NCBI GenBank assembly: GCA_907163225.1
Contig: OU015322.1
Location: 2,333,001 to 2,397,000, forward strand
Reading direction: 5' to 3'
Length of the DNA stretch: 64,000 nt
DNA from: an uncultured Rhodocyclaceae bacterium
GTDB taxonomy: Bacteria > Pseudomonadota > Gammaproteobacteria > Burkholderiales > Rhodocyclaceae
Part shown: one piece after another, positions 2,420 through 63,457 of the stretch
How the letters are laid out: each line of letters starts with the position of its first letter
How positions within the stretch are numbered: the first letter of the stretch is position 1
Position numbers and translations under genes: made by a program
Notes under the pieces: model-generated
Told to the model about the DNA's origin: nothing
The model's database searches: none
Seen by the model: the letters and a program-made list of their open reading frames with translations, nothing else

Positions 2420-3895
2420 ATGACATCTTCCACCCTAATGATCCAAGGGACCACCTCCGACGCCGGTAAAACGACATTGGTTGCCGCCCTTTGCCGCATC
2501 TTGCATCGTCGTGGTGTACGCGTTGCTCCGTTCAAGCCGCAGAACATGGCGTTGAATTCTGCCGTGACGGTGGATGGTGGCGAGATTGGGCGAGCGCAGG
2601 CTTTGCAGGCGCTGGCTTGCGGTCTTGAGCCGCATACCGATTTCAATCCGGTGCTGCTCAAGCCGACGACGGACAGGAAGGCGCAGGTTGTCATCCACGG
2701 CAAGGTGGCCTTTGACCTCGATGCCAAGGCTTATCACGAGTACAAGCCGCGGGCGATGGGGGCGGTGCTGGAATCCTGGGCGCGGCTGACGGCGCAGTAC
2801 GAGTGCGTGGTGGTCGAGGGGGCGGGGTCGCCGGCGGAGATCAATCTGCGCGACCGCGACATCGCCAACATGGGTTTTGCCGAGGAAGTTGATTGCCCGG
2901 TGATCATCGTCGCCGACATCGACCGGGGCGGGGTTTTTGCCCATTTGGTCGGCACGTTGGAACTGCTGTCGCCGACCGAGCAGGCGCGGGTCAAGGGCTT
3001 CGTCATCAACCGTTTTCGCGGCGACATCGCGCTGCTGGAATCCGGCTTGACCTGGCTGGAAGAACGCACGGGCAAGCCGGTTCTCGGCGTTTTGCCCTAC
3101 CTGCATGGCCTGATGCTCGACGCCGAGGACGCCATCGCGACTGCTGCGGTCGACGGGAAAAAAGCGGCAAAATTGAAAGTGATCGCGCCGGCCTTTCCGC
3201 GTGTTTCCAACCATAACGACCTTGATCCGCTGCGCCTGCATCCGGAAGTCGATTTCCGCTGGATCGGGCCGGGTGAGACGCCGCCGGCGGCGGATTTGAT
3301 CGTGCTGCCCGGCTCCAAGGCGGTGCGTGCCGACATCGACTGGCTGCGCGAAAAGGGTTGGGCGACAGCTATCCACAAGCACTTGCGCTACGGCGGCAAG
3401 GTGGTCGGCCTGTGCGGCGGCTACCAGATGCTGGGCAATTTGATTCACGACCCGCAGGGGCTGGAAGGCCAGCCGGGCAGCACGCCAGGGCTGGCTGTGC
3501 TGGCGGTGGAAACGACGCTGGAAGCGGAAAAGCAGCTGCGCAATGTGAGTGGCCACTTGGCGCTACCGGGCCGCCCGGCGATGACCGGCTATGAAATTCA
3601 CCTCGGTGTGACGCGTGGTGATGGCCTGGCGCAGACAGCCGTCGAACTGGCCGATGGTCGCCGCGATGGCGCCATTTCGGCCGATGGCCAAATTTTCGCC
3701 ACCTACTGCCACGGTGTGTTCGACCACCCGGAAGCCTTGACTGCCTTGCTTGCCTGGGCCGGGATGACGGAGAGCGTTCAGGTCGATTTCGCTGCCCGTC
3801 GCGAAGCCGATCTGGATCGCCTGGCCGATTCCGTCGAGGCCGCGCTCGACTGGCAAAAAATGGACGCTTTGTTACCGCGGCATCCGGCGACGTAA
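2420..3895 (+). CDS. cobQ: Cobyric acid synthase CobQ
   Basis: This 491-residue protein amidates the b, d, e and g carboxylates of adenosylcobyrinate diamide, using glutamine and ATP. The N-terminal dethiobiotin-synthetase-like ATPase begins [15 protein letters not shown] and includes [10 protein letters not shown] and [14 protein letters not shown]. The C-terminal class I glutamine amidotransferase has its nucleophile C332 in [12 protein letters not shown] and the histidine in [11 protein letters not shown]. Length is normal for the family. It faces an acquired TIR-like gene on the left, so it is not in an operon with bluB. An interspersed repeat copy encodes part of the inter-domain linker. 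Confidence 0.96.
3145..3180 (+). repeat. Interspersed 32-bp repeat, copy inside cobQ
   Basis: This diverged copy (GCGGTCGACGGGAAAA, then GCGGCAAAATTGAAA) is read in frame as [11 protein letters not shown]. It falls in the CobQ linker just before the conserved [14 protein letters not shown] segment. Orientation is the same as the gene. Confidence 0.55.
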
Positions 3896-4025
3896 AGTCC
3901 TTGGCCGGGCCGACTCAGGCCCGGCTATTCGCCGCCCGCTCTTTCGGCCCGCGCCAGGAGCGCTTTGGCCACCACGCTCACCGCTGCGATCACACCTCCC
4001 GCTGAAAGCCTTGTTGCCCCGCTGT

Positions 4026-5426
4026 CTACGCCGCAGCTGACGGCGTGGCGGGCGGGCTGGCGGTAATCGCCGGCGCCGTTTCGGCCGGTGTTTCCTCGTG
4101 CTTGATGCGCTTGAATGCCACCTGGCGCTGGATTTCGCGCAGATCCTTTTCCCGGCCGTAGAGCGCATATTGGGCGCGCAGCGTGCTGAACACTTTTTTG
4201 GCGTCAGGGCCGGCCATCAATTCCTCGGCTTGCAGGTCGGCCAGTTCATTGTCGTTGATGCTCAGGGCGGCGCGCATGATGTCGACGCGGTGGGTGGCGT
4301 TGAATTCGGTGCTGAGCATGGCGGGGCGCAGGCCGGCGAATCGCGGCTTGCCCTTTTCCACGGAGCTGATGGCGAGCAGCGCGGCGAAACTGGCCTGCTC
4401 GGCCAAATCCATTTTTTGCACTTCAGCGTCGCGGATGCCGAGCAGCACTTTTTCCGCCGTGATCTTGTCGCCGGCATTGACATGATTGCGCGCATTGGCG
4501 AGGCGGTCTTCGACGGAGATCGCGCCGGGCATGGTGTCGTTGGCTATGACGTCGGACATTGCGGCCAGCGCCGCTTCGGTGTCGCCGTTCAGCGTCGCAG
4601 CCTCGGCCAGCAGGCGCTTGCGCAGATAGTTGCGCGGCGTCTTTTTGGCCATGTCGTCGAGAATTTGCTGGGCTTCGGCGTGCTCGCCCTGGGCCATGCA
4701 GATGCTCGCCTTGAGGTCGCCGGCGTCGAAAAAGTGCGGGGTGCTGGCGACGACCCGGTCAATTTCGACGCGGGCCTCCTGCAGCCGATTCTGCTTTTGC
4801 AGCGAACGAGCGACGCCGGCCCGTGCCCAAGGGAATTCGTAGTTTTCCAGAATGCCACGGTAGGCGTCTTCGGCTGATTTCACGTCGCCGCTGGCAAGAA
4901 AAACCTCGGCCCGCTGACGCAGGATTTCAAAACGGTATGGGCGTCCGGCCTCGCTCTCGCGCGACGCTTCGAGAATGGCCAGCGCGTTGGCGTATTCCTG
5001 CTTGCGTTTTTCTTTGTAATAGCTGGCAAAGAAGCGCTTTTTGGCGACGATGCGGTCGAGGCGGAGCAGCAGCTTGTCCGGCGAAAACGGCTTGATGATG
5101 TAGTCGTCGGGGATCAGTTCAACGGCGGAAACAACCTGTTCGTAAGACTGTTCGCCGGTCACCATCATGAAAATGGTTTCGTCGGGCAGCAGGTTGAAAC
5201 GGCGCAGCTCTTCGAGCATTTGCTGCCCGGAACGGCCTTCGCCCAGCATGTAGTCGCAGAGGATGATGTCCGGCGTGTTGTTGCGGATGCGGAAGATCGC
5301 GTCCTGGTAATTGGTGGCGAATTCGACCGCAAAGGCGCCCAGTTGCTGGGCGATGGTGCGCAGGGCATCGCGCGCCTGCGGCTGGTCGTCGATGACGAGG
5401 AAACGCTTTTTGCTGTAGTCGGTCAT
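4026..5426 (-). CDS. Response regulator with C-terminal TPR-like region
   Basis: This 466-residue protein opens with a CheY-like receiver: the acidic pair in LVIDDQ, phosphoacceptor D58 in ILCDYMLGEG, T90 in MMVTGE and K112 in YIIKPF. From about residue 140 to 440 it is helical with repeated Ala/Leu pairs of TPR character, ending in a Pro/Ala-rich tail. There is no DNA-binding or enzymatic output domain, so phosphorylation probably changes a protein-protein interaction. Its start overlaps the stop of the upstream kinase-like gene by 1 base. The architecture resembles PilR/TPR-type receivers; the pathway is unknown. Confidence 0.85.
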   Translation of the reverse strand: MTDYSKKRFLVIDDQPQARDALRTIAQQLGAFAVEFATNYQDAIFRIRNNTPDIILCDYMLGEGRSGQQMLEELRRFNLLPDETIFMMVTGEQSYEQVVSAVELIPDDYIIKPFSPDKLLLRLDRIVAKKRFFASYYKEKRKQEYANALAILEASRESEAGRPYRFEILRQRAEVFLASGDVKSAEDAYRGILENYEFPWARAGVARSLQKQNRLQEARVEIDRVVASTPHFFDAGDLKASICMAQGEHAEAQQILDDMAKKTPRNYLRKRLLAEAATLNGDTEAALAAMSDVIANDTMPGAISVEDRLANARNHVNAGDKITAEKVLLGIRDAEVQKMDLAEQASFAALLAISSVEKGKPRFAGLRPAMLSTEFNATHRVDIMRAALSINDNELADLQAEELMAGPDAKKVFSTLRAQYALYGREKDLREIQRQVAFKRIKHEETPAETAPAITASPPATPSAAA

Positions 5427-6686: not shown

Positions 6687-6739
6687 GGCTGGCACTTTAG
6701 GTGATTGCGCACCCCTCCGGCAAGCCGGATAATCCACCC

Positions 6740-6900
6740 CGATTCGACGAAACGGAACCCGGTGCGAGTTAATCCTCAATTCCGGGGCGGGCCCGCCGCT
6801 GTAATCGGGGACGGCTGCTGCAACAGGCCACTGGCAAAGGGGAAAACCCGGCCGGGAAGGCGCAGCAAGCCGGCTGATCCGAAAGCCAGAAGACGTGTTG
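6740..6900 (+). promoter_or_regulatory. Cobalamin riboswitch upstream of cobT
   Basis: Conserved aptamer blocks appear in order: ACGGAACCCGGTGCGAG, TCCGGGGCGGGCCCGCCGCTG, ACGGCTGCTGCAACAGGCC, GCCACTGGCAAAGGGGAAAA, GGGAAGGCGC and GAAAGCCAGAAGAC. It ends about 100 bases before the cobT start. A GGCGAATTCGCC palindrome (6945-6956) and a short T-rich stretch follow and may belong to the expression platform. It most likely governs the cobT-cobS pair. Confidence 0.93.
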
Positions 6901-6996
6901 AATCCTCTTGGGAAACCTGTGGACAGGGTTTCGCGGCTGCGTTTTGGCGAATTCGCCAGATGTCGTCGCGAGGCCCTTTTTCTTTTGGAGAATCGG

Positions 6997-8795: not shown

Positions 8796-8822
8796 GCCAC
8801 CAAGAGCAAAATCGGCATTTCC

Positions 8823-8855
8823 ACGGTCAACCGGAAAAAATGCCCAAAATCGAAA
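8823..8855 (+). repeat. Interspersed 32-bp repeat, intergenic copy after cobS
   Basis: CACGGTCAACCGGAAAA followed by ATGCCCAAAATCGAAA lies 28 bases after the cobS stop and about 78 bases before the next gene. It is a close match to the family consensus and is not translated by any recognised gene. Confidence 0.85.
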
Positions 8856-8932
8856 TCCTGTTCGAGTGCTTGGGCGGCCTTCGCGGATGGATTTGCCGTT
8901 AAGCTTCAGGCATCGCCGATACCGTTCCCTCC

Positions 8933-9535: not shown

Positions 9536-10062
9536 TCCGCCACCCCAAACCGCAGGTAGAACCGGGCATTTGCTACGGTCAACGGGAAATTTTGGCCAAA
9601 ATTGAAATGGCCGATCTGGCGCGTCTGCGCACCGAACTGCCGCCCGGCCTGCCGGTGTGGAGCAGTCCGCTGCTGCGTTGCCGACATCTGGCCGAGCAGC
9701 TGCATGCGCAGCCGATCATCGACCCGCGCCTGGCTGAACTGAATTTTGGCGACTGGGAGGGCCGGCCTTGGGACGAGATTCCTCGGCATGAGCTCGATGC
9801 CTGGGCGGCCGATGTCGTCGGCTATGCGCCGCCCGGCGGCGAGTCGCCGCGCCAGTTGCAGGCGCGGGCGCTGCAGGCAGTTGCGCGCATCGACACGCCG
9901 GAGGCCGTGGCCGTGACGCACGCCGGGGTCATCCGCGCCTTGCTGGCGCACTGGCTGGCGCTGGCTGACGACGCCTGGCTGAGCATTTCAACCGACTTTC
10001 TCTCGATCACGACGGTCGAACTGGATGCAAACGGACGGGTGCTGCGTGTCACGAACCGGTAA
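9520..10062 (+). CDS. cobC: Histidine phosphatase, probable alpha-ribazole phosphatase CobC
   Basis: This 180-residue histidine-phosphatase superfamily member begins LHLIRHPKP, with the catalytic His in an RHP version of the usual RHG. It then has VWSSPLLRCRHLAE, ELNFGDWEGRPW and VTHAGVIRALL with the second catalytic His. CobC removes the phosphate from alpha-ribazole phosphate or adenosylcobalamin phosphate. The B12 role comes from context, with cobT and cobS just upstream. An interspersed repeat encodes the loop YGQREILAKIE, where homologues usually carry a short variable segment. Confidence 0.85.
   Translation: MRLHLIRHPKPQVEPGICYGQREILAKIEMADLARLRTELPPGLPVWSSPLLRCRHLAEQLHAQPIIDPRLAELNFGDWEGRPWDEIPRHELDAWAADVVGYAPPGGESPRQLQARALQAVARIDTPEAVAVTHAGVIRALLAHWLALADDAWLSISTDFLSITTVELDANGRVLRVTNR
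9575..9607 (+). repeat. Interspersed 32-bp repeat, copy inside cobC
   Basis: ACGGTCAACGGGAAA followed by TTTTGGCCAAAATTGAA holds the full 16-bp palindrome AATTTTGGCCAAAATT. It is translated in the frame GGT-CAA-CGG as GQREILAKIE, replacing a variable loop after the conserved GICYG. Confidence 0.85.
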
Positions 10063-10092
10063 AATTCGGTTTTCCATTTACGTCCGCCGCCC

Positions 10093-13911: not shown

Positions 13912-14030
13912 GTCGGTTATGTGGTTTGTACGGCCTGCGGCTACCAGTCTTGGGGGCTCGCATCGGCGAAATGGCGCGGAAAGTGTATCATCCGCCCAAC
14001 CCTGAAAGCCGCCCGGTAGCCCACGAGTTT

Positions 14031-16946: not shown

Positions 16947-17009
16947 TACTTTGCGCTGCTTGCTTTGTAAAAAATGACCGTCAATTCATAGACAAGAAAG
17001 TGCAAAAGA

Positions 17010-17859: not shown

Positions 17860-20607
17860 CTAGTGCGCCGCTTCCCAGTTCGGTCCGACGCCGACTTCAA
17901 CGACCAGCGGCACCTTTAGCTCGGCCACTTGGCTCATCAGGCGCGGCAGGTGGGTGCGGATTTTCATCAGTTCGTCGTCCGGCACTTCGAGCAGCAGTTC
18001 GTCATGTACTTGCAGCACCAGCTTTGATTTCAGTCCCGATTTTTCCAACCAGTTCTGCACGGCGATCATCGCCAGCTTGATCAAGTCGGCGGCCGTGCCT
18101 TGCATCGGTGCGTTGATCGCGGCGCGCTCGGCGCCCTGGCGGCGGTTGCCGTTGCTCGAACGGATTTCCGGGAACCACAGGCGGCGGCCGAAGGCGGTTT
18201 CGACGTAGCCTTTTTGCCGGGCCATTTCCCGGGCCTCTTCCATGTAGCGGGCGACGCCGGGATAACGCGCAAAGTAGCGGTCGATGTAGGTTTGCGCCGC
18301 ACTGCGCTCCAGCCCGAGCTGGCGGGCCAGCCCGAAGGCGCTCATGCCGTAGATCAGGCCGAAGTTGATGCTCTTGGCGACGCGGCGCTGGTCGGGGCCG
18401 ACTTCGAGCGGTGTGACGCCGAAGATTTCGCCGGCCGTCGCGCGGTGCACGTCCTCGCCATGCGAGAAAGCGTGGAGCAGGCCGTCGTCGCCCGAGAGGT
18501 GGGCCATGATGCGCAGCTCGATCTGCGAATAGTCGGCCGAGACGATGCTGGAACCTTCGGGCGCGATGAAGGCGGTGCGGATCTTTCGGCCTTCCTCGCT
18601 GCGCACCGGGATGTTCTGCAGGTTGGGATCGGTCGAGGCAAGACGCCCCGTTACAACGGAGGCCTGCGAGAAGTGAGTATGCACTCTCCCAGTCTGCGGA
18701 TTGATCATGCGCGGAAGCTTGTCGGTGTAGGTGCCCTTGAGTTTGGACAGGCTGCGGTGTTCGAGCAGCAGCTTGGGCAGCGGGTAGTCGAGAGCCAGTT
18801 CAGAGAGCACCTCTTCGTCGGTGGATGGGCCACCGGATGGCGTTTTTTTCTTGACCGGCAAGCCGAGTTTTTCGAACAGGATGTCGGCGAGCTGCTTGGG
18901 CGAGGCGAGGTTGAAGGGCTGGCCGGCCAGTTCGTAGGCCTGCGCTTCGAGGGCCATGATCTTCTGGCCCATTTCGTGGCTCTGGCGCGTCAGCACATCG
19001 GCGTCAATCAGGATGCCGTTGCGCTCGATCTGCCAAATGACCTGGCGGGCCGGCATTTCTATGTCGTGGTAGATGCGCGACAGGCCGGGTTCGTCGGTGA
19101 ATTGCGGGTGCAGCACGTTATGGATGCGCAGGGTGACGTCGGAATCTTCCGCTGCGTAGGTGGCGGCGCGTTCTATATCGACCTGATCGAAGGTGATCTG
19201 CTTGGCGCCCTTGCCGCAGAGGTCTTCGTAGGCGATGGTGTCGAGGCCGAGGTGGCGGGTGCAGAGCTGGCCGAGGTCGTGGCCCTTGTCGGACTCGATG
19301 ACGTAGCTTTGCAGCATGGTGTCGTGTTCGATGCCGGCCAGCGTGATGCCGTGGTTGGCGAAAACGTGCTGGTCGTACTTGGCGTTTTGCAGCACTTTTT
19401 TCCGGTTGACCCTAGGGCCAGCCGTTGATTCTGTGGTCGCGGAAAGCCAGGGCTTGAGCTTGGCCAGCACCTCGTCACGCGGCAGCTGATCGGCGACGCC
19501 GGGGGCGGTGTGGGCGAGTGGAATGTAGCAGGCTTCACCCGGTTTGACCGAGAGCGAAATGCCGACGATGCGGGCTTCGAAGGAGTCGAGGCTGGTCGTT
19601 TCGGTGTCGAGCGCGGTCAGTTCTGCCGCTTCGATTTTGGCCAGCCAGGTATCGAATTGCGGCCAGCTCAGGACGGTTTCGTAGGTAACGTCGATTTTGC
19701 CTTGGAGCGTGGGCGCCGCGGCATCGGAAACCGTGCGGGCCGGGATGTCGGCGGCCGCTTCGGGCCCATCGATATCGGCCAGCCATGAGCGGAACTGGTA
19801 GCGGGTGTAGAGCTCTCGCAGCGTGGCGATATCGGGTGGTGTTGCGTTCAGCGTGGCTGGTGTCGGCAGGTTGGAGAGATCACAGGCGACGGTGACCAGT
19901 TTCTTGCCAAGCGGCAAAAAGCCAAGGTGATCACGCAGATTCTGGCCAACGACGCCGCCGATTTCGTCGGCATGGGCGACGATTTCGTCGAGCGAGCCGT
20001 ATTGCGCCAGCCATTTGAGCGCGGTTTTCGGCCCGCATTTGGCGACGCCCGGTACGCCGTCGACGGTGTCCCCAACCAGCGCCAGATAATCGACGATCTT
20101 GTCCGGTGGCACGCCGAACTTGGCCTCGACGCCGGCCTCGTCGAGCAGTTCGTTGCTCATCGTGTTGTACCAGCGGACGAGCGGATTGACCAGTTGGGTC
20201 AGATCCTTGTCGCCGGTCGAAATCAGTGTATTTATGCCGTCGACCGCAGCATTCGTCGCCAGCGTGCCGATTACGTCGTCGGCTTCGACGCCATCGACCA
20301 TCAGCAGCGGCCAGCCGGCGGCCCTGATCGCGGCATGCAGCGGCTCGATCTGGCCGACCATTTCGGGCGGCATCGGCGGCCGGTGCGCCTTGTATTCGGG
20401 ATACCAGTCGTCGCGGAAAGTCTTGCCCTTGGCATCGAAGACGACCGCCTTGTAGTCTGCCTTGTAGTCGCTCTCCAGACGACGTAGCATGTTCAGAACG
20501 CCGTAGATGGCGCCCGTCGGCTCGCCGGCCTTGTTGCGCAGGTCGGGCAGGGCGTGGAAAGCGCGATAGAGATAGGACGAACCGTCCACCAACAACAAGA
20601 GAGGCAT
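17860..20607 (-). CDS. polA: DNA polymerase I
   Basis: This 915-residue protein has all three domains. The 5' nuclease (1-290) opens LLLVDGSSYLYRAFHAL and has VVFDAKGKTFR. The 3'-5' exonuclease (about 310-520) keeps ALDTETTSLDS and YAAEDSDVTL, so proofreading should be active. The polymerase has motif A DYSQIELRIMAHLS, motif B RRVAKSINFGLIYGMS and motif C VHDELLLEVP. It acts in Okazaki fragment processing and repair. Its start lies only 5 bases from the start of the divergent LOG gene. A repeat copy encodes a linker in the exonuclease domain. Confidence 0.97.
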   Translation of the reverse strand: MPLLLLVDGSSYLYRAFHALPDLRNKAGEPTGAIYGVLNMLRRLESDYKADYKAVVFDAKGKTFRDDWYPEYKAHRPPMPPEMVGQIEPLHAAIRAAGWPLLMVDGVEADDVIGTLATNAAVDGINTLISTGDKDLTQLVNPLVRWYNTMSNELLDEAGVEAKFGVPPDKIVDYLALVGDTVDGVPGVAKCGPKTALKWLAQYGSLDEIVAHADEIGGVVGQNLRDHLGFLPLGKKLVTVACDLSNLPTPATLNATPPDIATLRELYTRYQFRSWLADIDGPEAAADIPARTVSDAAAPTLQGKIDVTYETVLSWPQFDTWLAKIEAAELTALDTETTSLDSFEARIVGISLSVKPGEACYIPLAHTAPGVADQLPRDEVLAKLKPWLSATTESTAGPRVNRKKVLQNAKYDQHVFANHGITLAGIEHDTMLQSYVIESDKGHDLGQLCTRHLGLDTIAYEDLCGKGAKQITFDQVDIERAATYAAEDSDVTLRIHNVLHPQFTDEPGLSRIYHDIEMPARQVIWQIERNGILIDADVLTRQSHEMGQKIMALEAQAYELAGQPFNLASPKQLADILFEKLGLPVKKKTPSGGPSTDEEVLSELALDYPLPKLLLEHRSLSKLKGTYTDKLPRMINPQTGRVHTHFSQASVVTGRLASTDPNLQNIPVRSEEGRKIRTAFIAPEGSSIVSADYSQIELRIMAHLSGDDGLLHAFSHGEDVHRATAGEIFGVTPLEVGPDQRRVAKSINFGLIYGMSAFGLARQLGLERSAAQTYIDRYFARYPGVARYMEEAREMARQKGYVETAFGRRLWFPEIRSSNGNRRQGAERAAINAPMQGTAADLIKLAMIAVQNWLEKSGLKSKLVLQVHDELLLEVPDDELMKIRTHLPRLMSQVAELKVPLVVEVGVGPNWEAAH
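19380..19415 (-). repeat. Interspersed 32-bp repeat, copy inside polA
   Basis: On the minus strand the copy reads AGGGTCAACCGGAAAA and continues GTGCTGCAAAAC. It is translated as RVNRKKVLQNAKYD, immediately before the conserved AKYD of the exonuclease domain. Orientation is the same as the gene; the second half of the repeat is weakly kept. Confidence 0.6.
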
Positions 20608-24167: not shown

Positions 24168-24821
24168 TTGAGTGAACCGCTCGGCCTCTTCGGCGGCACC
24201 TTCGACCCTGTTCATTTCGGCCACCTGCGGCTGGCGGAAGAGTCGATTGCCCACTTGGGCCTCGGCGGCGTGCGCTGGATTCCGGCTGGCCAGCCGCCGC
24301 ATCGCGGGACGCCGCAAGTGACCGCCCAGCAGCGTCTGGAGATGGTGCTGCGGTCAACGGCAAAAAACGCCAAATTTTCAATTGATGCCAGCGAGGTTGA
24401 GGCCGCCGCGCCTAGCTACACGGTGCATACGCTGGAGCGCCTGCGGCGCGAACTCGGCGAGCAACAGTCGCTGGTTCTGCTGGTCGGCGCCGACGCCTTT
24501 GCCGGACTATCGACCTGGCACCGCTGGCGCGACATTTTTTCGCTGGCCCACGTGGCGGTATCGCACCGCCCCGGTTTTCCGGTCGAAACCAGCAGTCTGC
24601 CGCACGAACTGGCGACCGAGTTTAACGACCGTTTCCTCGCCGATGTCGCCGGCCTGAAATCCTCACCAGCCGGCGGAATCGTCACTTTTGCCATGACCCA
24701 GCTGGCTATTTCGGCCACCCAGATCCGCAAACTATTGGCCAACGGCCTGTCGGCGCGCTATTTGCTGCCCGATGCTGTTCTCGACTATATTCACCTTCAC
24801 CAACTCTATAAAAGCACCTGA
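24168..24821 (+). CDS. nadD: Nicotinate-nucleotide adenylyltransferase NadD
   Basis: This 217-residue enzyme makes deamido-NAD from nicotinate mononucleotide and ATP. The nucleotidyltransferase signature GLFGGTFDPVHFGHLRLAE and the C-terminal ISATQIRKLLANG are present. The TTG at 24168 is the only start that places the signature at residue 5. The region RSTAKNAKFSID, where homologues carry a different sequence before the conserved APSYT, is encoded by a repeat copy. nadD heads the conserved nadD-rsfS-rlmH-maf order; its stop and the rsfS start share one base. Confidence 0.94.
   Translation: MSEPLGLFGGTFDPVHFGHLRLAEESIAHLGLGGVRWIPAGQPPHRGTPQVTAQQRLEMVLRSTAKNAKFSIDASEVEAAAPSYTVHTLERLRRELGEQQSLVLLVGADAFAGLSTWHRWRDIFSLAHVAVSHRPGFPVETSSLPHELATEFNDRFLADVAGLKSSPAGGIVTFAMTQLAISATQIRKLLANGLSARYLLPDAVLDYIHLHQLYKST
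24350..24383 (+). repeat. Interspersed 32-bp repeat, copy inside nadD
   Basis: GCGGTCAACGGCAAAA followed by AACGCCAAATTTTCAATT. It is read in frame CGG-TCA-ACG as RSTAKNAKFSI, a third sense frame compared with the other coding copies. Confidence 0.65.
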
Positions 24822-26258: not shown

Positions 26259-26814
26259 GCGTCGCCACCGCGCCGAGATAGCCGTCCGGCAAGGCTAGCG
26301 GCTGAACGCGACAGGGCGCTAAATGCGCTTCCAGTGCCGCACTCCATTCTTCCAGACCTAAACCACGGCATTTGAGGCGGGCTTCGTGCTCCGTCCAGGC
26401 TTGGGCGAAGTGCGTGAGTTGTTCATTCGGCGGCAGGGCGGCGATTTGTCCGGCGCGTTTCGGGCCGAGATAATCGTTGGCCAGGGCTGGAATTTCAGTC
26501 GGCCAATCAGGATCGTCAGGCAGGCGCAGCAGGTCGATGCCGACCGGGCCGGCGCGGTGAATCGCCAGCAGCGAAAGCCCGTTTTCATGGCTGATTGAAA
26601 GGCCGGACGGATTGTCCTGCCCGGCCAGCCGGAGCGGCTGGCCGGGGACGGAGATCAGTTCGACGTCGCCCAGTATGTCGCGCAAGATGCGACGAACCTC
26701 CAGGCGGGCCGATTCGCGAATTGGCGTATTTTTCGTGTTGACCGCAACAATCAGCAAATTTTGCGCCGTATCGAACGCTGCCGGCCAGTGCAGGACAGTC
26801 GGCGGTCTGAGCAT
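26230..26814 (-). CDS. 4'-phosphopantetheinyl transferase superfamily protein
   Basis: This 194-residue Sfp/HetI-like enzyme would convert apo carrier domains to holo form with CoA. Conserved parts are GLSISHENGLSLLAI, GIDLLRLPDD with Mg2+-binding Asp, and FAQAWTEHEARLKCRG, the WxxxEAxxK motif. Its start lies 4 bases after the stop of the large NRPS-like gene on the same strand. That neighbour's carrier domain (LGGHS serine) is therefore its likely target. A repeat copy encodes VAVNTKNTPIRE near the N-terminus. Confidence 0.88.
   Translation of the reverse strand: MLRPPTVLHWPAAFDTAQNLLIVAVNTKNTPIRESARLEVRRILRDILGDVELISVPGQPLRLAGQDNPSGLSISHENGLSLLAIHRAGPVGIDLLRLPDDPDWPTEIPALANDYLGPKRAGQIAALPPNEQLTHFAQAWTEHEARLKCRGLGLEEWSAALEAHLAPCRVQPLALPDGYLGAVATLIAAENPAA
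26714..26747 (-). repeat. Interspersed 32-bp repeat, copy inside the phosphopantetheinyl transferase gene
   Basis: The minus strand reads TGCGGTCAACACGAAAAA followed by TACGCCAATTCGC. It is translated as AVNTKNTPIR, in the same sense frame as the cobQ, polA and acetoacetyl-CoA synthetase copies. Confidence 0.65.
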
Positions 26815-30866: not shown

Positions 30867-31931
30867 TCAGGTAAAAATTTGTGCGCTGGCATGATGAAAA
30901 ATAGCCTCGGCTGCCTGCGATATGCCATCGACCGGGGGTCTGGGCCCGGGCGCTTCCAGGCCGAGTTTGTCGAGGGCGGCTGAAATCCGGCCGCAGCCTA
31001 GTTCGTCTGCATCAATTTCAACGCAGCGGCCGTTGTCGTTCAGCCACTCGATCAGGCAGTCCTGCTCCGGCCAGTCGTCGCGCCGCTGGTAGATGACCGG
31101 CGTGCCGTTGCAAGCGGCTTCGGTGAAGGTGCCGTAACCGGGTTTGGTGATGACGGCGTCGACCGAGCACAGCAGGTCGGTGAAGCCGAGGCCGAAGGAT
31201 TCGCTGGCCATGGCGTCAGGGTGCCGACAGTTCCAGGCGGCGGGCAGCAGCCAGCGCACGCCGGGCAGGCGTGGCCAGTGCTCGACCGGCAGGCGATGAG
31301 CGATGCCGCCCATGGCGATGAGGATGGCTTTGTCGCCGTTCAGGCCGAGGTCGTGGCGCCGGCCGAGGGTAGCGATCGGGCCAACGGGCAGGAGGTTGGC
31401 CAGCGCATCCATCGTCATGCCCGGCGTGACCCGAAGAAAGGCCTGTGCCGAGCGGTAGGCGGCGAGCATCTCGGCCTGGATGGGGGCAGCCCAGGGCTGG
31501 TCGCCGAAGAAATGAGCGAACAGGTCAGCCCAGTTCAGCGAACACAGGCTGAGCGCCGGTATGCCGGCCCTGGCCGCGCCGGCAAGCGGCAGGTAGCTGA
31601 CGTTGGTGAGGACGAGATCGGGTTTCAGGTCGGCGAGAAAACGTGCTTCATCGGCGACGCGGGCAGACCAGGCGCTGTGGGCTTGCCGGTAGGCGACTGC
31701 ACTGGCGGCCAGATCGACGCGGGTGGCGTCGATCATCACGTAGCCGAAATCGCTGGCGGCTGGAATCAACGCGAAGGGCGGTTTGATTCGCTGTTGCAGC
31801 TTGGCGACGGGGAGGGCACTTCTGACGGTCAACCGGAAATTCGGCGCAATTTCCGAAAGCGCGTTGAGCACCGGCGCGGTGATGGCGAGGTGCCCGAAGC
31901 CGTGGCTGGAGATGTCGACAAACAGGTGCAT
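30867..31931 (-). CDS. MurG-like (GT-B) glycosyltransferase
   Basis: This 354-residue protein has HGFGHLAITAPVLNAL near the start, replacing the glycine-rich acceptor loop of GT28 enzymes. PDLVLTNVSYLPL follows in the middle, and the donor-side VITKPGYGTFTEAACNGTPVIYQRRDDWPEQDCLIEW near the end. The ATG at 31931 fits the family N-terminus (LFVDISSHGFGH). It lies 49 bases upstream of the NRPS-like gene on the same strand, so they may form a unit. One repeat copy is translated (NFRLTVRS) and a second lies 34 bases before the start. Confidence 0.78.
   Translation of the reverse strand: MHLFVDISSHGFGHLAITAPVLNALSEIAPNFRLTVRSALPVAKLQQRIKPPFALIPAASDFGYVMIDATRVDLAASAVAYRQAHSAWSARVADEARFLADLKPDLVLTNVSYLPLAGAARAGIPALSLCSLNWADLFAHFFGDQPWAAPIQAEMLAAYRSAQAFLRVTPGMTMDALANLLPVGPIATLGRRHDLGLNGDKAILIAMGGIAHRLPVEHWPRLPGVRWLLPAAWNCRHPDAMASESFGLGFTDLLCSVDAVITKPGYGTFTEAACNGTPVIYQRRDDWPEQDCLIEWLNDNGRCVEIDADELGCGRISAALDKLGLEAPGPRPPVDGISQAAEAIFHHASAQIFT
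31824..31856 (+). repeat. Interspersed 32-bp repeat, antisense copy inside the MurG-like glycosyltransferase
   Basis: GACGGTCAACCGGAAATT followed by CGGCGCAATTTCCGAAA. The gene runs on the other strand and reads it as IAPNFRLTVRS, the antisense frame F-x-L-T-V used by three other copies. Confidence 0.75.
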
Positions 31932-31964
31932 GGGGGCTGCTTGAATTGGTTGCCGGGCAACGCT

Positions 31965-31995
31965 GCGGTCAACCGGAAAATTTGGCCGAAACTGA
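31965..31995 (+). repeat. Interspersed 32-bp repeat, copy upstream of the MurG-like glycosyltransferase
   Basis: GCGGTCAACCGGAAAAT followed by TTGGCCGAAACTGA is a near-consensus copy. It is 34 bases upstream of the 31931 start and 109 bases from the copy inside the gene. Confidence 0.85.
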
Positions 31996-32045
31996 TTTGT
32001 CCGGACGCTTTTGCGCAACGCCCGGATTCGGCGAAATGCCTTGGC

Positions 32046-33750: not shown

Positions 33751-35705
<1,955 letters not shown>

Positions 35706-36885: not shown

Positions 36886-38157
36886 TTAAACAAAACGCGC
36901 GACGAAGGATTTGGTGTACATGGCCGGCAAATCAATCCACACCCGATGGCCGCTGCCCGGCGCCACTTCGACCGGTTCGCCCTTCCGGTTTTCCATGCGA
37001 TTCAGCGTGATGGTGTGGTTGCCGGAGGGATGCACGCATTCCAGCTGGTCGCCGACGGAAAAGCGGTTCTTGACCTCGATTTCCATCAGGCCGCGCGCCT
37101 CGTCGAACTGAACGGCGTCGCCAACATACAGGCTGCGATCCGATTCCGAATTGCCGCGCAGATAGTTCTGGTGATCCGCATCGTGGTGCCGCTGCAGGAA
37201 GCCGTCGGTGTAGCCGCGATTGGCCAGGCCCTCAAGCTCACGCAAGAGCGCCGGGTCGAGCGGCTTGCCGGCGACGGCGTCATCGATGGTCTGGCGATAA
37301 ACCTGGCTGGTGCGGGCGACGTAGTACGGGCTCTTGGTTCGGCCTTCGATTTTCAGCGAATCGACGCCGATTTCGACCAGGCGATGGACGTGCTCGATGG
37401 CACGCAAGTCCTTGGAATTCAGGATGTAGGTGCCGTGCTCGTCTTCCTCGATTGGCATCAGTTCGCCCGGACGCATCTTTTCTTCGAGCAGGATTTCCTG
37501 TTCGTTTTTGAGCAATTTTGCCGGTTGACCGTCGGAAGTCGTCACCTTGTAGTCCCAGCGGCAGGAATTGGTGCAGGTGCCCTGGTTCGGGTCGCGGTGA
37601 TTGAAGTAGCCGGAGAGCAGGCAACGGCCGGAGTAGGCGATGCACAGCGCGCCGTGTACGAAGACTTCGAGCTCGATGTCCGGGCATTTCTGGCGGATTT
37701 CAGCCACTTCGTCGAGCGACAACTCGCGCGACAGAATGATGCGGTCGACGCCCATTTTTTGCCAAAAACGAACCGAGGCCCAGTTGACCGTGTTGGCCTG
37801 TACCGACAGGTGGATGACCTGTTCCGGCCAGGTTTCGCGCACCATGTCGATGAGGCCGGGGTCGGACATGATCAGCGCGTCCGGCTTGAGCGCGATGACC
37901 GGGGCCATGTCGGACAGATAGGTTGGCAGCTTGGCGTTGTGCGGAATGATGTTGCTGACGACAAAAAACTGCTTGCCGCGGGCGTGGGCCTCGTTGATGC
38001 CTTCGCCCAGTTTTTCGATGCTGCCAAACTCGTTGTTGCGCACGCGCAGGCTGTAGCGCGGCTGGCCGGCGTAGATGGCGTCGGCGCCGAAATCGAAGGC
38101 GGTGCGCATCATGTCGAGCGAGCCGGCGGGGGCGAGGAGTTCGGGGGCTTTGGTCAT
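36886..38157 (-). CDS. trhP: tRNA 5-hydroxyuridine synthesis protein TrhP (peptidase U32 family, YegQ)
   Basis: This 423-residue U32-family protein has the family opening ELLAPAGSLDMMRTAFDFGADAIYAG, LSVQANTVNWASVRFW and the cysteine cluster FVHGALCIAYSGRCLLSGYFNHRDPNQGTCTNSCRW expected to bind an iron-sulfur cluster. YegQ/TrhP makes the prephenate-dependent ho5U34 modification of tRNA. The length fits YegQ rather than the shorter UbiU/UbiV. A repeat copy encodes SDGQPAKLLKNE after the last cysteine. It is divergent from rng with 35 bases between starts. Confidence 0.9.
   Translation of the reverse strand: MTKAPELLAPAGSLDMMRTAFDFGADAIYAGQPRYSLRVRNNEFGSIEKLGEGINEAHARGKQFFVVSNIIPHNAKLPTYLSDMAPVIALKPDALIMSDPGLIDMVRETWPEQVIHLSVQANTVNWASVRFWQKMGVDRIILSRELSLDEVAEIRQKCPDIELEVFVHGALCIAYSGRCLLSGYFNHRDPNQGTCTNSCRWDYKVTTSDGQPAKLLKNEQEILLEEKMRPGELMPIEEDEHGTYILNSKDLRAIEHVHRLVEIGVDSLKIEGRTKSPYYVARTSQVYRQTIDDAVAGKPLDPALLRELEGLANRGYTDGFLQRHHDADHQNYLRGNSESDRSLYVGDAVQFDEARGLMEIEVKNRFSVGDQLECVHPSGNHTITLNRMENRKGEPVEVAPGSGHRVWIDLPAMYTKSFVARFV
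37505..37534 (-). repeat. Interspersed 32-bp repeat, copy inside trhP
   Basis: The minus strand reads GACGGTCAACCGGCAAAA followed by TTGCTCAAAAACGAA. It is translated as DGQPAKLLKNE, in the same GQ-type frame as the cobC copy, in a loop after the cysteine cluster. Confidence 0.75.
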
Positions 38158-42527: not shown

Positions 42528-42553
42528 AAAAAGCCCGCTTCGGCGGGCTTTTC
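42528..42553 (+). terminator. Rho-independent terminator after mscS
   Basis: AAAAGCCCGC, loop TTCG, GCGGGCTTTT forms a strong hairpin with a T-run, 21 bases after the mscS stop. The A-rich left arm could also serve the opposite strand, ending the metF-side transcript. Confidence 0.92.
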
Positions 42554-42584
42554 AATTTTGGGCCTTTTTCCCGGTTGACCGTAG
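42551..42584 (-). repeat. Interspersed 32-bp repeat, intergenic copy between mscS and metF
   Basis: On the minus strand TACGGTCAACCGGGAAAA is followed by AGGCCCAAAATTGAA. It begins at the end of the mscS terminator and lies 20 bases beyond the metF stop. Confidence 0.85.
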
Positions 42585-42603
42585 AAAGCCGGGGGGGTGC
42601 CTG

Positions 42604-43428: not shown

Positions 43429-44246
43429 TTGTTCAACCAGATGAAGAATTCGCGGTTGCCATCACCGCCGGAAATGGGGCTGTCGAGCCATGCTCTTACG
43501 GTCAACCCGAAAATTTGGCCAAAATCGCAAAGCTTCTTTTCCACTTCGCGATACAGGGCCGGATCGCGAACGATGCCGCCCTTGCCGATGTTGTCGGGGC
43601 CGACTTCGAATTGCGGTTTAACCAGCAACAGCAGTTCGCCGTGCGCAGCCAGCAGCGGCGGCAGTTGCGGCAGGATCAGCGTCAGCGAGATGAAGGAAAC
43701 GTCGCCGACGATCAAATCGAAGCCACCTTCGGGAAAAGCCGCGCCGAGATCGGCGGCCGTCAGCGCCCGGCAATTGACGCCTTCGATGGCGGTGACGGCA
43801 GGATCATGGCGTAGTTGGGCGTGCAACTGGCCATGGCCGACATCGACGCCGACAACGTGGCGGGCACCGTTCTGCAGCAGGCAGTCGGTAAAGCCGCCGG
43901 TGGACTGGCCGACATCGAGGCAAAGCTTGCCGGCTACCTTCAGCCCGGTCTGGGCCAGCGCGCCAGCCAGCTTCAAGCCGCCACGCGATACGTAATGGCC
44001 ATCCGGGTCGGCGGCCACGGTCAACGGCGTATCGTCGGGCAAATCCATCGCCGGCTTGGTAATCGTGCCGCCGGCCCAGCTGACCCGGCCTTCCTTGATC
44101 AGCCACTGGGCAGCCGTGCGTGAGGGGGCCAGCTTTTGGATGACGAGGAGGGCATCTGCCCGTGTCACCCCGGCTGGTCGTTCGTACGACGATTCTCGAG
44201 GAGGGCGTGGCTTTTTCTGCCGCGCGTGGAAGGAGTTCATGCTCAT
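43425..44246 (-). CDS. tlyA: TlyA family rRNA methyltransferase
   Basis: This 273-residue protein has an N-terminal S4 RNA-binding domain (RADALLVIQKLAPSRTAAQWLIKEGRV). A FtsJ-like methyltransferase follows: YVSRGGLKLAGAL, CLDVGQSTGGFTDCLLQNGA, VVGVDVGHGQL, LIVGDVSFISLTLILP and LLLVKPQFEVG. Relatives 2'-O-methylate 16S and 23S rRNA. The C-terminal CDFGQIFGLTVRAWLDSP is partly encoded by an antisense repeat copy but keeps the family pattern. It is coupled to metF by ATGA. Confidence 0.9.
   Translation of the reverse strand: MSMNSFHARQKKPRPPRESSYERPAGVTRADALLVIQKLAPSRTAAQWLIKEGRVSWAGGTITKPAMDLPDDTPLTVAADPDGHYVSRGGLKLAGALAQTGLKVAGKLCLDVGQSTGGFTDCLLQNGARHVVGVDVGHGQLHAQLRHDPAVTAIEGVNCRALTAADLGAAFPEGGFDLIVGDVSFISLTLILPQLPPLLAAHGELLLLVKPQFEVGPDNIGKGGIVRDPALYREVEKKLCDFGQIFGLTVRAWLDSPISGGDGNREFFIWLNK
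43497..43530 (+). repeat. Interspersed 32-bp repeat, antisense copy inside tlyA
   Basis: TACGGTCAACCCGAAAAT followed by TTGGCCAAAATCGCAA. tlyA lies on the other strand and reads it as CDFGQIFGLTVR. It is among the best matches to the consensus. Confidence 0.85.
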
Positions 44247-46022: not shown

Positions 46023-46106
46023 AGTAAGCTCCAAATAAACTGTGACGGGGAGGGGAATAACGGCGTTGTTGCTCACCGGCGGCCCCCTGCGCCCGGCAGG
46101 GTTGAT

Positions 46107-46162
46107 CAGTGAGCGCCGTTTTAAACCGAGCCTGGGGGATGGTCCCCTGCAGCGCCCCTCGG
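46107..46162 (-). promoter_or_regulatory. SAH riboswitch upstream of ahcY
   Basis: On the minus strand CCGAGGGGCGCTGCAGGGG begins the aptamer, CCCCCAGGCTCGG closes the P1 stem, and AACGGCGCTCACTG provides the pseudoknot strand. This is the known SAH-sensing pattern found before ahcY in betaproteobacteria. It should turn expression on when SAH builds up. The downstream leader (46023-46106) contains GTGAGC and AACGCCGTT, complementary to the pseudoknot strand, which could be the alternative pairing. Confidence 0.9.
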
Positions 46163-46187
46163 TAGGTTGCGGATTATAAATGCGTTT

Positions 46188-53479: not shown

Positions 53480-53569
53480 CAGCAGCTTCCCGCCACCGGG
53501 CTTGTTGATGAGGCATCTGCTCAGAAATAGCGCCAAATTGCTGGCGTCCAGCGGTGCATTCCATCCTGG

Positions 53570-53602
53570 TGCGGTCAACCGGAAAAATCGGCTAAAAATC
53601 AA
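53570..53602 (+). repeat. Interspersed 32-bp repeat, intergenic copy after xerC
   Basis: TGCGGTCAACCGGAAAAAT followed by CGGCTAAAAATCAAGG lies in the xerC to 52-residue-protein gap, 75 bases before the next start. The rest of 53480-53676 shows no gene; a promoter for the small gene should lie here. Confidence 0.8.
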
Positions 53603-53676
53603 GGCTTCGTTGACGATTCACTGTCGGGGCGCTATCCTCTGCGGTTTCGCAAATTCGCTGGATTCAAGGAGTTTTC

Positions 53677-55163: not shown

Positions 55164-55439
55164 ATGTTGCGCCATCTCCTTCTCGTCATCGTGCTCTTCT
55201 TCGCCCAGCTGGCGGTGGGGGCGCACGCGGTCGAGCATGCGGCGGGCAACGAGGATGGCCTGCCGACCCACGCCTGCCAGCTCTGTCTGGCGGCGCATGA
55301 TCTCGGTGCGGCGCTGCCATCGCTGGCGGCCTTGCCGCCCGTGCTGGCCGTTCAAGTGGTTCCCGAATCCTTTTCGGCACACGACCGTTGCGCCTTCCCG
55401 GCGCCGGTTGCCACCCAGCGCGGCCCGCCCCGCTTCTGA
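55164..55439 (+). CDS. Small exported Cys/His protein (DUF2946-like), metal locus
   Basis: This 91-residue protein has a signal peptide (LLLVIVLFFAQLAVGAHA) followed by VEHAAGNEDGLPTHACQLCLAAHDLG, a CxxC pair with several histidines. Such proteins often precede metal-transport genes and fit the loose DUF2946 group. Here it precedes a porin and a zinc-type ABC transporter, so metal binding is plausible. The start is an ATG 21 bases after a repeated TACTG-containing stretch. Function is otherwise unknown. Confidence 0.65.
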   Translation: MLRHLLLVIVLFFAQLAVGAHAVEHAAGNEDGLPTHACQLCLAAHDLGAALPSLAALPPVLAVQVVPESFSAHDRCAFPAPVATQRGPPRF

Positions 55440-55440
55440 A

Positions 55441-55470
55441 ATTGCCCGTTTTTTCCGGTTGACCGTGGGA
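55441..55470 (-). repeat. Interspersed 32-bp repeat, intergenic copy before the porin
   Basis: The plus strand reads TTGCCCGTTTTTTCCGG followed by TTGACCGTGGGA. It starts 1 base after a stop codon. Its arrangement closely matches the copy at 63428, which also begins right after a stop. Confidence 0.85.
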
Positions 55471-55514
55471 TTCCCTGCGGGCTGCCGGTTTTCCCGCATT
55501 TTCAGGAGTATTCC

Positions 55515-56975: not shown

Positions 56976-57872
56976 ATGAAACATCTTATTTTTGGGTTTT
57001 TTTTCGGGTTGACCGCAACATTCGCTCAGGCCGACCTCAAGGTCTTTGCCACAGTGCCGGAATGGGGCGCGCTGGCCCAGGAAATCGGGGGCAGCAAGGT
57101 CAAGGTCTACAACGCGACCAACGCCTTCCAGGATCCGCACCGCATCGAGGCCAAGCCGTCCCTGCTGGCTCAAGCCCGGCAGGCCAACCTGCTCATCGCG
57201 GCCGGGGCCGATCTCGAAATCGGATGGCTGCCGCTGGTTCTGCGCGATTCGGGCAATGCCACCATCCAGCCCGGTCGGCCGGGCTATTTGGAGGCGGCCG
57301 GCTTGGTCAATCGGCTGGAGGTGCCGACCACGCTCGATCGCGCTAACGGTGACGTCCACGCGGCGGGCAATCCGCACATCCATCTCGATCCGCGCAATGT
57401 GCTGAAAGTGGGCGAAGCCCTCGCTGCCCGCATGGCCGAGCTGGATGCGCCCAACGCCGCCGCCTATCAGGCCGGCTACCAGTCCTTCGCCGGCAAATGG
57501 CAGGCGGCGATGGCGCGCTGGCAGAAGGAGGCCGCGCCGCTCAAGGGCGTGCCGGTACTCGTTCATCATGCCTCGTTCGCCTACCTGCTCAAATGGCTGG
57601 GCATGACGGAGGTGGGTGCGCTCGAACCGAGGCCCGGCATTGAGCCGACCAGCGGTCATTTGAGCAACCTGCTCGCCCGCCAGCAAACGCTGCCGGCCAG
57701 AATGGTGCTGCGCGCCGCCTACCAGCAGGAGGGGCCAAGCCAGTGGATCGCCGGCAAGACCGGCCTGCCGGCTGTCCTGCTGCCCTACACTGTCGGCGGG
57801 ACACCGGAGGCGAAAGACCTGTTCGGGCTGTTCGACGATACCGTGCAACGGCTATTGAAAGGAGCGCGGTGA
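56976..57872 (+). CDS. znuA: Zinc/manganese-type ABC transporter substrate-binding protein
   Basis: This 298-residue cluster A-I periplasmic protein has a signal peptide (HLIFGFFFGLTATFAQA) and VFATVPEWGALAQEIGG. Metal-ligand histidines lie in QDPHRIEAKPS, GNPHIHLDP and VLVHHASFAYLLKWLGM, and EPRPGIEPTSGHL carries the C-lobe ligands. A long His-rich loop is missing, so the metal could be zinc or manganese. A repeat copy supplies the hydrophobic core of the signal peptide. It overlaps the ATPase gene (GTGA). Confidence 0.85.
   Translation: MKHLIFGFFFGLTATFAQADLKVFATVPEWGALAQEIGGSKVKVYNATNAFQDPHRIEAKPSLLAQARQANLLIAAGADLEIGWLPLVLRDSGNATIQPGRPGYLEAAGLVNRLEVPTTLDRANGDVHAAGNPHIHLDPRNVLKVGEALAARMAELDAPNAAAYQAGYQSFAGKWQAAMARWQKEAAPLKGVPVLVHHASFAYLLKWLGMTEVGALEPRPGIEPTSGHLSNLLARQQTLPARMVLRAAYQQEGPSQWIAGKTGLPAVLLPYTVGGTPEAKDLFGLFDDTVQRLLKGAR
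56987..57018 (-). repeat. Interspersed 32-bp repeat, copy inside the substrate-binding protein signal peptide
   Basis: The plus strand reads TTTTTGGGTTTTTTTTCGGG followed by TTGACCGCAACA. It is translated as IFGFFFGLTATF, the hydrophobic core of the signal peptide (antisense frame F-G-L-T). Confidence 0.7.
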
Positions 57873-62455: not shown

Positions 62456-62475
62456 GACTGCGGGAAATCCCGGCT

Positions 62476-62500: not shown

Positions 62501-62539
62501 AATCCACGCTGTTGCCACCCTACATTTGAGGCCTTCCAT

Positions 62540-63427
62540 TTGGACGAGCAAAGCCTGAGCTTTCGCCTGCTGGCCATCCTTTTTCCGATTTTCGGGATCG
62601 TCGCGGCCGGCTATTTCTACGCCCGCAAGCACAAGCCGGAAATGGCGGTCGCCAACCGGCTGAACATGGATGTCTTCGTGCCGGCGCTGGTTTTTGCCGC
62701 GATGGCCGGCAAGTCCTTCGATCTCGCGGCCTATGCCCCGCTCGCGCTCGGCGGCTTTCTCGTCCTTGCGACCTGCGGCCTGCTCGCCTGGCCAATAGCC
62801 CGGATGATCGGCATCCAGCCCAAGACGCTGGTGCCGCCGATGCTGTTCAACAATTCCGGCAACATCGGCCTGCCGCTTGCCGTGCTGGCCTGGGGCGAGG
62901 CAGCGCTGCCGGCGGCGGTGATCCTGTTCATGGTCGAGAACACCTTGCACTTTTCCTTCGGCGCCCGTCTGCTCGACCCCAAGGCGCGCTTGCTGACCTT
63001 GTGGCGCGTGCCCGTGCTTTTGGCCGCAATTTTCGGGTTGACCGTAGCGATCCTGAAAATCCCGGTCTGGACGCCGCTGGTCATCGCCATCAAGATGCTC
63101 GGCGACGTTTCGGTGCCGCTGCTCCTCTTTTCGCTCGGCGTACGGATGACCGATGTGTCGTTCGGCGAATGGAAGCTGGCGGTGGGGAGTGCCGTGCTGC
63201 GACCACTGGCCGGCATGTTGATCGCCGCCGGTGTCATCCAGCTGCTCGGCCTGCAGGGGCGCGACGCCGCGATGCTGTTCGTCTTCGGCGCCCTGCCGCC
63301 CGCCGTGCTCAACTTCCTGTTTGCCGAGCGCTACAAGCAGGAACCGCAGCGCGTGGCGTCGATCGTGCTGATCGGCAATCTGGCGGCGCTGCTTTTCCTG
63401 CCGCTGGCGCTGGCTTACGTGCTTTGA
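62540..63427 (+). CDS. AEC (auxin efflux carrier) family transporter
   Basis: This 295-residue protein has about ten hydrophobic segments. AEC family marks are IFGIVAAGYFYARK near the start, NRLNMDVFVPALVFAAM, PPMLFNNSGNIGLPLAVLAWGE and FVFGALPPAVLNFLFAERY. Bacterial members export malate or other small acids; the substrate is unknown. The start is a TTG at 62540. A repeat copy encodes the membrane stretch AAIFGLTVAILKI. Confidence 0.87.
   Translation: MDEQSLSFRLLAILFPIFGIVAAGYFYARKHKPEMAVANRLNMDVFVPALVFAAMAGKSFDLAAYAPLALGGFLVLATCGLLAWPIARMIGIQPKTLVPPMLFNNSGNIGLPLAVLAWGEAALPAAVILFMVENTLHFSFGARLLDPKARLLTLWRVPVLLAAIFGLTVAILKIPVWTPLVIAIKMLGDVSVPLLLFSLGVRMTDVSFGEWKLAVGSAVLRPLAGMLIAAGVIQLLGLQGRDAAMLFVFGALPPAVLNFLFAERYKQEPQRVASIVLIGNLAALLFLPLALAYVL
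63021..63047 (-). repeat. Interspersed 32-bp repeat, antisense copy inside the AEC transporter
   Basis: The plus strand reads TGGCCGCAATTTTCGGG followed by TTGACCGTAG. It is translated as AAIFGLTVA within a membrane helix, in the same F-G-L-T-V frame as the tlyA copy. Confidence 0.75.
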
Positions 63428-63457
63428 ATTTGGCCGTTTTTTCCGGTTGACCGTGGC
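63428..63457 (-). repeat. Interspersed 32-bp repeat, intergenic copy after the AEC transporter
   Basis: The plus strand reads AATTTGGCCGTTTTTTCC followed by GGTTGACCGTGG. It begins immediately after the transporter stop codon and ends 10 bases before the convergent hslR stop. It occupies nearly the whole intergenic gap. Confidence 0.88.

Follow-up and report, generated by a model that had tools for sequence, protein, structure and literature searches.

A dispersed two-part repeat with features of a DNA uptake signal sequence in Azonexus/Dechloromonas genomes

A short two-part motif recurs on both strands of a 64,000-nucleotide stretch of DNA from an uncultured Rhodocyclaceae bacterium. This stretch, hereafter called the window, comprises positions 2333001-2397000 of a genome (G000) that consists of one contig of 3,463,890 bases (3.46 Mb). 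From its sequence and distribution, we consider it quite probable that this repeat serves the genome as an uptake signal sequence, preferred by the lineage's type IV pilus/ComEC transformation machinery. Uptake words have been described in two families, the Pasteurellaceae (uptake signal sequences, USS) and the Neisseriaceae (DNA uptake sequences, DUS), according to the consulted portions of two reports (PMC1626085, PMC12616744). It is likely, though a little less so, that Azonexus/Dechloromonas represents a third self-DNA-uptake lineage, independent of Neisseria and built on the Pasteurellaceae plan (an inner GCGGTC and a pair of A/T tracts in helical phase), with two dialects and with several losses or gains inside the genus. 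An initial annotation of the window had listed a dispersed repeat of 17 copies, and its interpretation is partly supported by the results described here.

Each of the 17 listed positions holds a copy of the repeat. A search of the window with CGGTCAACCGGAAAA, permitting up to 3 mismatches, yielded 22 matches that include all 17 sites, compared with 2.1 expected and a maximum of 5 among 100 dinucleotide shuffles. The copies are distributed as 9 on the (+) strand and 8 on the (-) strand. A 40-column weight matrix with a score threshold of at least 10 recovers 18 matches in the window, which are the 17 copies plus a weak one at 20214. When applied to a 464-kb sample comprising the window and 20 evenly spaced 20-kb stretches of the host genome, on which the matrix was itself partly trained, it yields 139 matches versus 0 in third-order Markov sequence. 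The resulting density of approximately one copy per 3.3 kb is near the earlier estimate of about one per 4 kb. The whole genome holds 497 matches (232 forward, 265 reverse) to the 15-base core CGGTCAACCSGAAAA with up to 1 mismatch, versus 1 for the reversed pattern; the initial annotation had named hundreds of copies as the outcome that would support a genomic repeat family.

A codon-usage artefact was rejected as the source of this excess because synonymous-codon shuffles that keep the proteins (n=10) lose most in-gene copies. Coding copies at 0, 1 and 2 mismatches number 6, 13 and 37 (5 of these 37 being identical repeats within one gene), compared with shuffle means of 0, 1.1 and 5.5. A codon- and dinucleotide-matched control was the comparison that the initial annotation had named as capable of refuting the repeat, and the excess held. 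These counts confirm that the dispersed repeat is real and lies far above composition- and codon-matched chance.

A sequence logo was built from 96 copies with at most 1 mismatch and full context. It depicts a unit of ~39 bp composed of TnC-YR-CGGTCAACCSG and, at distances of approximately one and two helical turns on its downstream side, A/T tracts. Counting from the C of CGGT as 0, the logo carries T at -5, C at -3, a pyrimidine-purine step at -2/-1, CGGTCAACC, G or C, and then G. Further downstream, an A-tract (11-16) and one loose position (17) precede a G/C patch at 18-21, AAA-W-W at 22-26, a loose pair and AAA at 29-31. The logo core is partly fixed by the choice of copies because 30 of the loci were fetched for matching. 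An AAWWY tract peaks 14-16 bases past the core in 10 of 10 motif-bearing genomes sampled, and no unit larger than ~39 bp was found around the copies. The initial annotation had proposed a second block, with a palindrome in the best copies. A right half does exist, usually as a short G/C patch, AAAWW and AAA, but it is less uniform than claimed. The sequence TTTGGCCAAAATCGA with up to 3 mismatches yields 10 window matches versus 2.3 expected, 5 of which fall at copies of the repeat (4 of the 17), and the palindrome AATTTTGGCCAAAATT is exact at a single place, 9588.

Comparison with relatives reveals the origin of the copies. Genomes G002, G311 and G326 are syntenic with the window at ~84% identity. 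Among the 14 window copies with at most 1 mismatch, 13 align to G002 without gaps, and the fourteenth, at 19398, is gapped at its 5' end. The motif is kept in G002 at 9 of the 13 ungapped sites, compared with 37% of random aligned 15-mers differing by at most 1 position (p ~0.02), and at 9 of 11 and 10 of 12 ungapped sites in G311 and G326, respectively. Site 26730 is unaligned in the latter two genomes, site 19398 is gapped in both, and site 37517 is gapped in G311. Across the 17 copies, identity to G002 is highest in the core (0.91), followed by the second tract (0.89) and the first tract (0.85), whereas the spacer reaches 0.73 and the flanks 0.78 and 0.83. At sites 26730, 31826 and 63030, the window carries the motif, and the sequences of G002, G311, G326 and G003, where aligned, are ungapped with 3-8 mismatches. 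Since the alignment is free of gaps at most sites and the differences within the motif are substitutions, the majority of copies are gained and lost by substitution and not by insertion. At most sites, then, the copies arose in place. The designation 'repeat family', if taken to mean an element that copies itself, is contradicted by these orthologous sites. A substitution-versus-insertion test of the same kind, as reported in the consulted part of the source, showed that USS are not insertions (PMC1626085).

Copies are located both inside and between genes, as the initial annotation stated. A set of 110 sampled copies with at most 2 mismatches includes 56 within predicted genes, 52 outside and 2 at an edge. 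The non-genic share of the sample is 17%, giving an intergenic excess with p ~2e-13, although the home-made gene caller used may miss genes, which would inflate the intergenic share. Most in-gene copies (41 of 56) are on the coding strand, and 30 of 56 occupy a single frame that reads (Ala/Thr)-Val-Asn. These figures include five identical repeats from a gene near 3.13 Mb with a 2160-base internal period (G000:C1:3122844-3131484; locus L061, ~8844-17484). The five stretches are motif-like, with 2 mismatches, and slightly inflate the copy count of that region.

To survey other genomes, we counted matches to the joint pattern YRCGGTCRAC-N15-AAWWY across 249 genomes drawn as a sample of the family. 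The 8 genomes from the host's own genus carry 38-574 copies, whereas the 241 from other genera carry 0-9. Within a set of 76 genomes from the genus, 40 have at least 100 copies (termed motif-rich), 7 have 20-99 and 29 have fewer than 20, with 0-2 for reversed controls. The suggestion of a lineage-limited family is thereby borne out. In the 40 motif-rich genomes combined, forward copies number 8455 and reverse copies 8422. Among the genera sampled, the bipartite motif is characteristic of a single one, which we infer to be Azonexus/Dechloromonas. A strict 32-bp contig scan gave at least 114 matches, and the 80 listed among them belong to Azonexus, Dechloromonas, Azonexaceae, Rhodocyclaceae and unresolved Proteobacteria, Betaproteobacteria and Gammaproteobacteria assemblies. 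The NCBI taxonomy places Azonexus and Dechloromonas in the Azonexaceae, Rhodocyclales.

The motif exists as two dialects, CGGTCAAC and CGGTCGAC, with common spacing. De novo word counts in G030, G024 and G032 identified CGGTCGAC, not CGGTCAAC, as the enriched core, with the A/T tract at an equal distance. Two A/T-rich segments lie 3' of the core at fixed spacing, although in these three genomes, which carry the CGGTCGAC dialect, the first of them is weak. Neither core is enriched in G022, G018 or G035 by the same counts. The share of the CGGTCAAC form (the A form) is bimodal among the 40 motif-rich genomes, being 60-90% in 16 and 17-43% in 24, with none between. On a tree of 29 of 30 SerS genes (G024 was left out because its match is in two pieces), the A form is clustered, requiring 3 changes (0 of 500 shuffles as low). 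Motif-poor genomes are scattered on this tree, with 7 changes (44 of 500 shuffles as low). Separately, the octamers CGAGCAGG and GAGCAGGG occur several-fold above third-order Markov expectation in the host sample and in several genomes of the genus, including motif-poor G018 and G035. This excess could reflect codon usage or a Chi-like signal.

The initial annotation had considered the repeat to be unlike known uptake sequences. On the contrary, its copy number, strand symmetry, in-place origin, core with two A/T tracts and dialects all match those of the Pasteurellaceae USS, although its core differs from the published ones. As described in the portions consulted, USS number from hundreds to thousands of copies, lack orientation bias, are in excess in spacers, originate by substitution and form two types by subclade. 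Their core is followed on its 3' side by two A/T-rich segments about a turn apart, for a total of ~32 nucleotides (PMC1626085, PMC12616744). An inner GCGGT(C) is common to the present motif and to the USS (Hin-type AAGTGCGGT, Apl-type ACAAGCGGT(C)), and its GCGGTC echoes the inner GCGG and the extended Apl word ACAAGCGGTC. However, the 5' AAGT/ACAA part of USS is absent from the present core YRCGGTCRAC, the present density and consensus are weaker, and the host is a betaproteobacterium with 60% GC. In the Hin consensus, moreover, the A/T tracts begin ~6 bases nearer to GCGGT. The Pasteurellaceae cores are not enriched in the 464-kb sample (AAGTGCGGT, 1 copy; ACAAGCGGT, 0 copies).

The main DUS form, GCCGTCTGAA, likewise has 0 copies in the 464 kb. 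The Neisseriaceae belong, as does the host, to the Betaproteobacteria. DUS resemble the present motif in being genome-wide self words whose dialects follow phylogeny, according to the part of the report consulted (PMC3630211). In contrast, GCCGTCTGAA is one short block with no flanking motifs in the account consulted (PMC1626085), whereas the present motif is multi-part, and DUS dialects have an inner CTG that the present core lacks. By analogy, the repeat would function like a USS, yet it stands outside both the Pasteurellaceae USS and the DUS and is new to Rhodocyclales in the literature searched. No uptake word for Rhodocyclales or Dechloromonas was found in the open-access literature, with subscription journals mostly outside the search. 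The top literature matches included nothing relevant on dispersed repeats in Dechloromonas, and the 3 works that contain CGGTCAACCGG are unrelated by title.

If the repeat is an uptake signal, the type IV pilus/ComEC machinery would bind and pull in free DNA bearing the motif preferentially. YRCGGTCRAC would be read by a receptor at the cell surface, which by analogy would be a minor pilin, and the A/T tracts that follow at one and two turns may help the duplex to bend as it passes the outer-membrane pore. Fragments bearing the motif would be taken up and recombined more often, such that mutations towards the motif spread by biased transformation, a form of molecular drive. This spread would occur wherever the sequence tolerates the motif, chiefly in spacers and in the (Ala/Thr)-Val-Asn frame, and the pair of dialects would follow changes in the receptor.

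Genes for such machinery are present in the host, including a ComEC open reading frame of 858 amino acids, DprA and a minor-pilin operon. The operon (G000:C1:1087435-1090254; locus L224) encodes pilin-like, FimT-like and PilW-like frames, named by eye, and the FimT-like frame differs greatly from one genome of the genus to another.

Several observations weigh against an uptake function. Of the 76 genomes of the genus, 71 have ComEC (among the good genomes, 51 of 51) and 75 have DprA; motif-poor genomes are among them, and the only genome without DprA, G019, is motif-rich. Competence-gene loss was accordingly rejected as the cause of motif-poor genomes. Two candidate receptors were also rejected. 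The ComP_DUS pilin is present in 34 of 36 genomes of the genus searched, both with and without the motif, and the nearest relatives of the host FimT-like pilin are in genomes that are motif-poor (G004, G006, G320). In the motif-poor genome G035, no decayed remnants were seen at the 5 ungapped shared sites, which lie 4-6 mismatches from the motif. Identity to G002 at positions -5 to -1 (0.72) and 27-32 (0.78) is no better than in the flanks, even though these positions appear in the logo. Perfect CGGTCAACC cores (87) are fewer than single-mismatch cores (241 over 27 variants), whereas an excess of perfect over single-mismatch cores is a trait common to USS and DUS in the part of the source consulted (PMC1626085). 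Because single-mismatch cores are common, the consensus is weaker than in Haemophilus. The motif is also sparser than the words of Haemophilus and Neisseria, which occur near one copy per kb according to the same portion of that source (PMC1626085). Strand counts are uneven at p<0.05 in 3 of the 40 motif-rich genomes (most extremely 158/211 in G011), the spacing of copies is indistinguishable from random (variance/mean 0.73 over 46 10-kb bins, within chance of 1), and overlapping inverted motif pairs are rare, with one seen. Finally, no work on transformation in Azonexus or Dechloromonas appeared among the top open-access literature matches.

Damaged comEC genes were encountered on both sides of the copy-number divide. 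ComEC is short or interrupted within a contig in motif-poor G018, G035 and G330 and in motif-rich G002 (541 copies), and the ComEC match of G008 (509 copies) is damaged. Because broken ComEC occurs in both motif-poor and motif-rich genomes, no link to copy number is claimed. The comEC gene of G002 holds a 33.7-kb element of 51.5% GC (G002:C33:109608-143311; loci L254-L256) with 0 copies of the motif versus 4.4 expected (Poisson p 0.012), whereas 26 kb of its flanks carry six. An element in the comEC gene of G330 also has 0 copies, but G330 is motif-poor throughout. These related low-GC elements of 32-34 kb split comEC near the start of the Competence domain in both genomes (in G330 at C1:2218693-2251157; loci L257-L259). 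The first frame of the G002 element reads like a large serine recombinase, as named from sequence with no family search. By disrupting the DNA-uptake channel, such an element may guard against its own replacement through transformation. As for phages, one strict pattern of the motif gave 0 matches in IMG/VR.

We weighed other explanations for the repeat. One is that an intracellular protein, either chromosome-organising or nucleoid-associated, binds the motif, which selection keeps at each site; we judge this to be unlikely but worth some weight. Conservation of the core and second tract, and a fixed two-part site with helical spacing, would suit any protein-DNA complex, and the competence genes do not track copy number. 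However, 39-bp sites that number several hundred, show no clear polarity by strand or replichore and in many cases lie in genes would be unusual for an essential chromosomal function, as would two dialects and near-absence from 29 of 76 genomes of the genus. The 0 copies in the G002 comEC element would also need explanation.

A second explanation, that the motif is a non-autonomous mobile repeat (REP/BIME, MITE or similar) spread by copying, appears very improbable. High copy number, partial palindromy and a patchy distribution within the genus are in keeping with such an element, as is the gap at the 5' end of site 19398 in relatives, and REP, BIME and REPIN elements share with the present motif the property of being many short, partly palindromic copies. 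Those elements are mobile and mostly extragenic, whereas about half of the present copies are in genes, and most of their sites are ungapped relative to relatives, with substitutions inside the motif. On this point the initial annotation, which had set the repeat apart from REP-like elements, was correct. The frame bias of the coding copies (30 of 56, five of these from the one repetitive gene), the lack of anything beyond ~39 bp and the absence of an Rfam match at the motif copies also argue against a mobile repeat.

A transcription terminator or other RNA element is equally hard to credit. The spacer excess favours this idea, and intergenic copies with both neighbours known (n=49) lie between convergent genes in 18 cases, tandem genes in 25 and divergent genes in 6. 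However, the folding energy of two tested copies is no better than that of shuffles on either strand, about half of the copies are coding, and overlapping inverted pairs are rare. The pair that was seen, at G000:C1:816-845 (locus L043), consists of two opposed cores that overlap as a perfect palindrome between convergent genes, and it resembles the terminator-forming uptake-sequence pairs of other families.

Least probable of all is a Chi- or KOPS-like recombination or segregation polarity signal, since such signals, while similarly over-represented throughout the genome and short, are much shorter than the present motif and strand-biased along replichores, whereas local GC skew, used as a replichore proxy, assigns 49 of the 110 sampled copies to the leading and 61 to the lagging strand (48 versus 54 without the repetitive-gene stretch), with no clear bias. 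In keeping with the lack of strand preference noted previously, the strands are near equal both in the window (9/8) and genome-wide (232/265).

By the home-made gene calls, the 17 window copies comprise 10 coding, 6 intergenic and 1 at a gene edge. Coding copies on the (+) strand lie in genes for a CobB/CobQ-like amidotransferase (3140..3179, with core CGGTCGAC), a histidine phosphatase (9569..9608, which contains the exact palindrome AATTTTGGCCAAAATT), a cytidylyltransferase-like protein (24344..24383), an AMP-binding, acetyl-CoA-synthetase-like protein (34480..34519) and an FtsJ-like methyltransferase (43492..43531, the gene being on the opposite strand). Another (+) copy, at 31819..31858, is in predicted gene 30867-31931, which has no Pfam match, and four relatives are ungapped there with 3-4 mismatches. 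Coding copies on the (-) strand lie in genes for DNA polymerase I (19380..19419, where relatives have the gap at the 5' end), a phosphopantetheinyl-transferase-like protein (26712..26751, where the ungapped G002 site is 8 mismatches off), peptidase U32 (37499..37538) and a membrane-transport protein (PF03547; 63012..63051, where six relatives are ungapped with 3-6 mismatches). A copy at 56983..57022 (-) spans a predicted gene start. Intergenic copies are at 8817..8856 (+), with at most 1 mismatch in all six relatives aligned there, at 31959..31998 (+), 53565..53604 (+) and 55433..55472 (-), and, between convergent neighbours, at 42549..42588 (-) and 63421..63460 (-).

Weaker matches in the window include the extra copy at 20214..20253 (-), with core CGGTCGAC and a matrix score of 11.4, and a bipartite match YRCGGTCRAC...AAWW at 37740..37769 (+), also with core CGGTCGAC. 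Other weak bipartite matches are at 7037 (-), 30475 (+), 44016 (+), 49491 (+) and 61544 (-). The window additionally contains two cobalamin riboswitches and one SAH riboswitch identified by Rfam, at 318-513 (-), 6728-6916 (+) and 46104-46166 (-).

Uptake words are best known from host-associated species, and members of Dechloromonas and Azonexus are involved in perchlorate, N2O and phosphorus cycling. If the repeat is indeed an uptake signal, a third lineage would be available with 76 species genomes, both dialects, and motif-rich beside motif-poor members. Such a lineage would allow a direct test of whether these words serve DNA choice or arise incidentally from the mechanics of pilin and pore. 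The GCGGT plus A/T anatomy, shared with Pasteurellaceae across two classes, leads to a specific prediction for the receptor and for DNA bending. Independent arrival at the same plan, if true, would mean that the plan is set by the mechanics of uptake or by a shared pilin receptor of deep ancestry. The motif could also help to make Dechloromonas and Azonexus isolates transformable in the laboratory.

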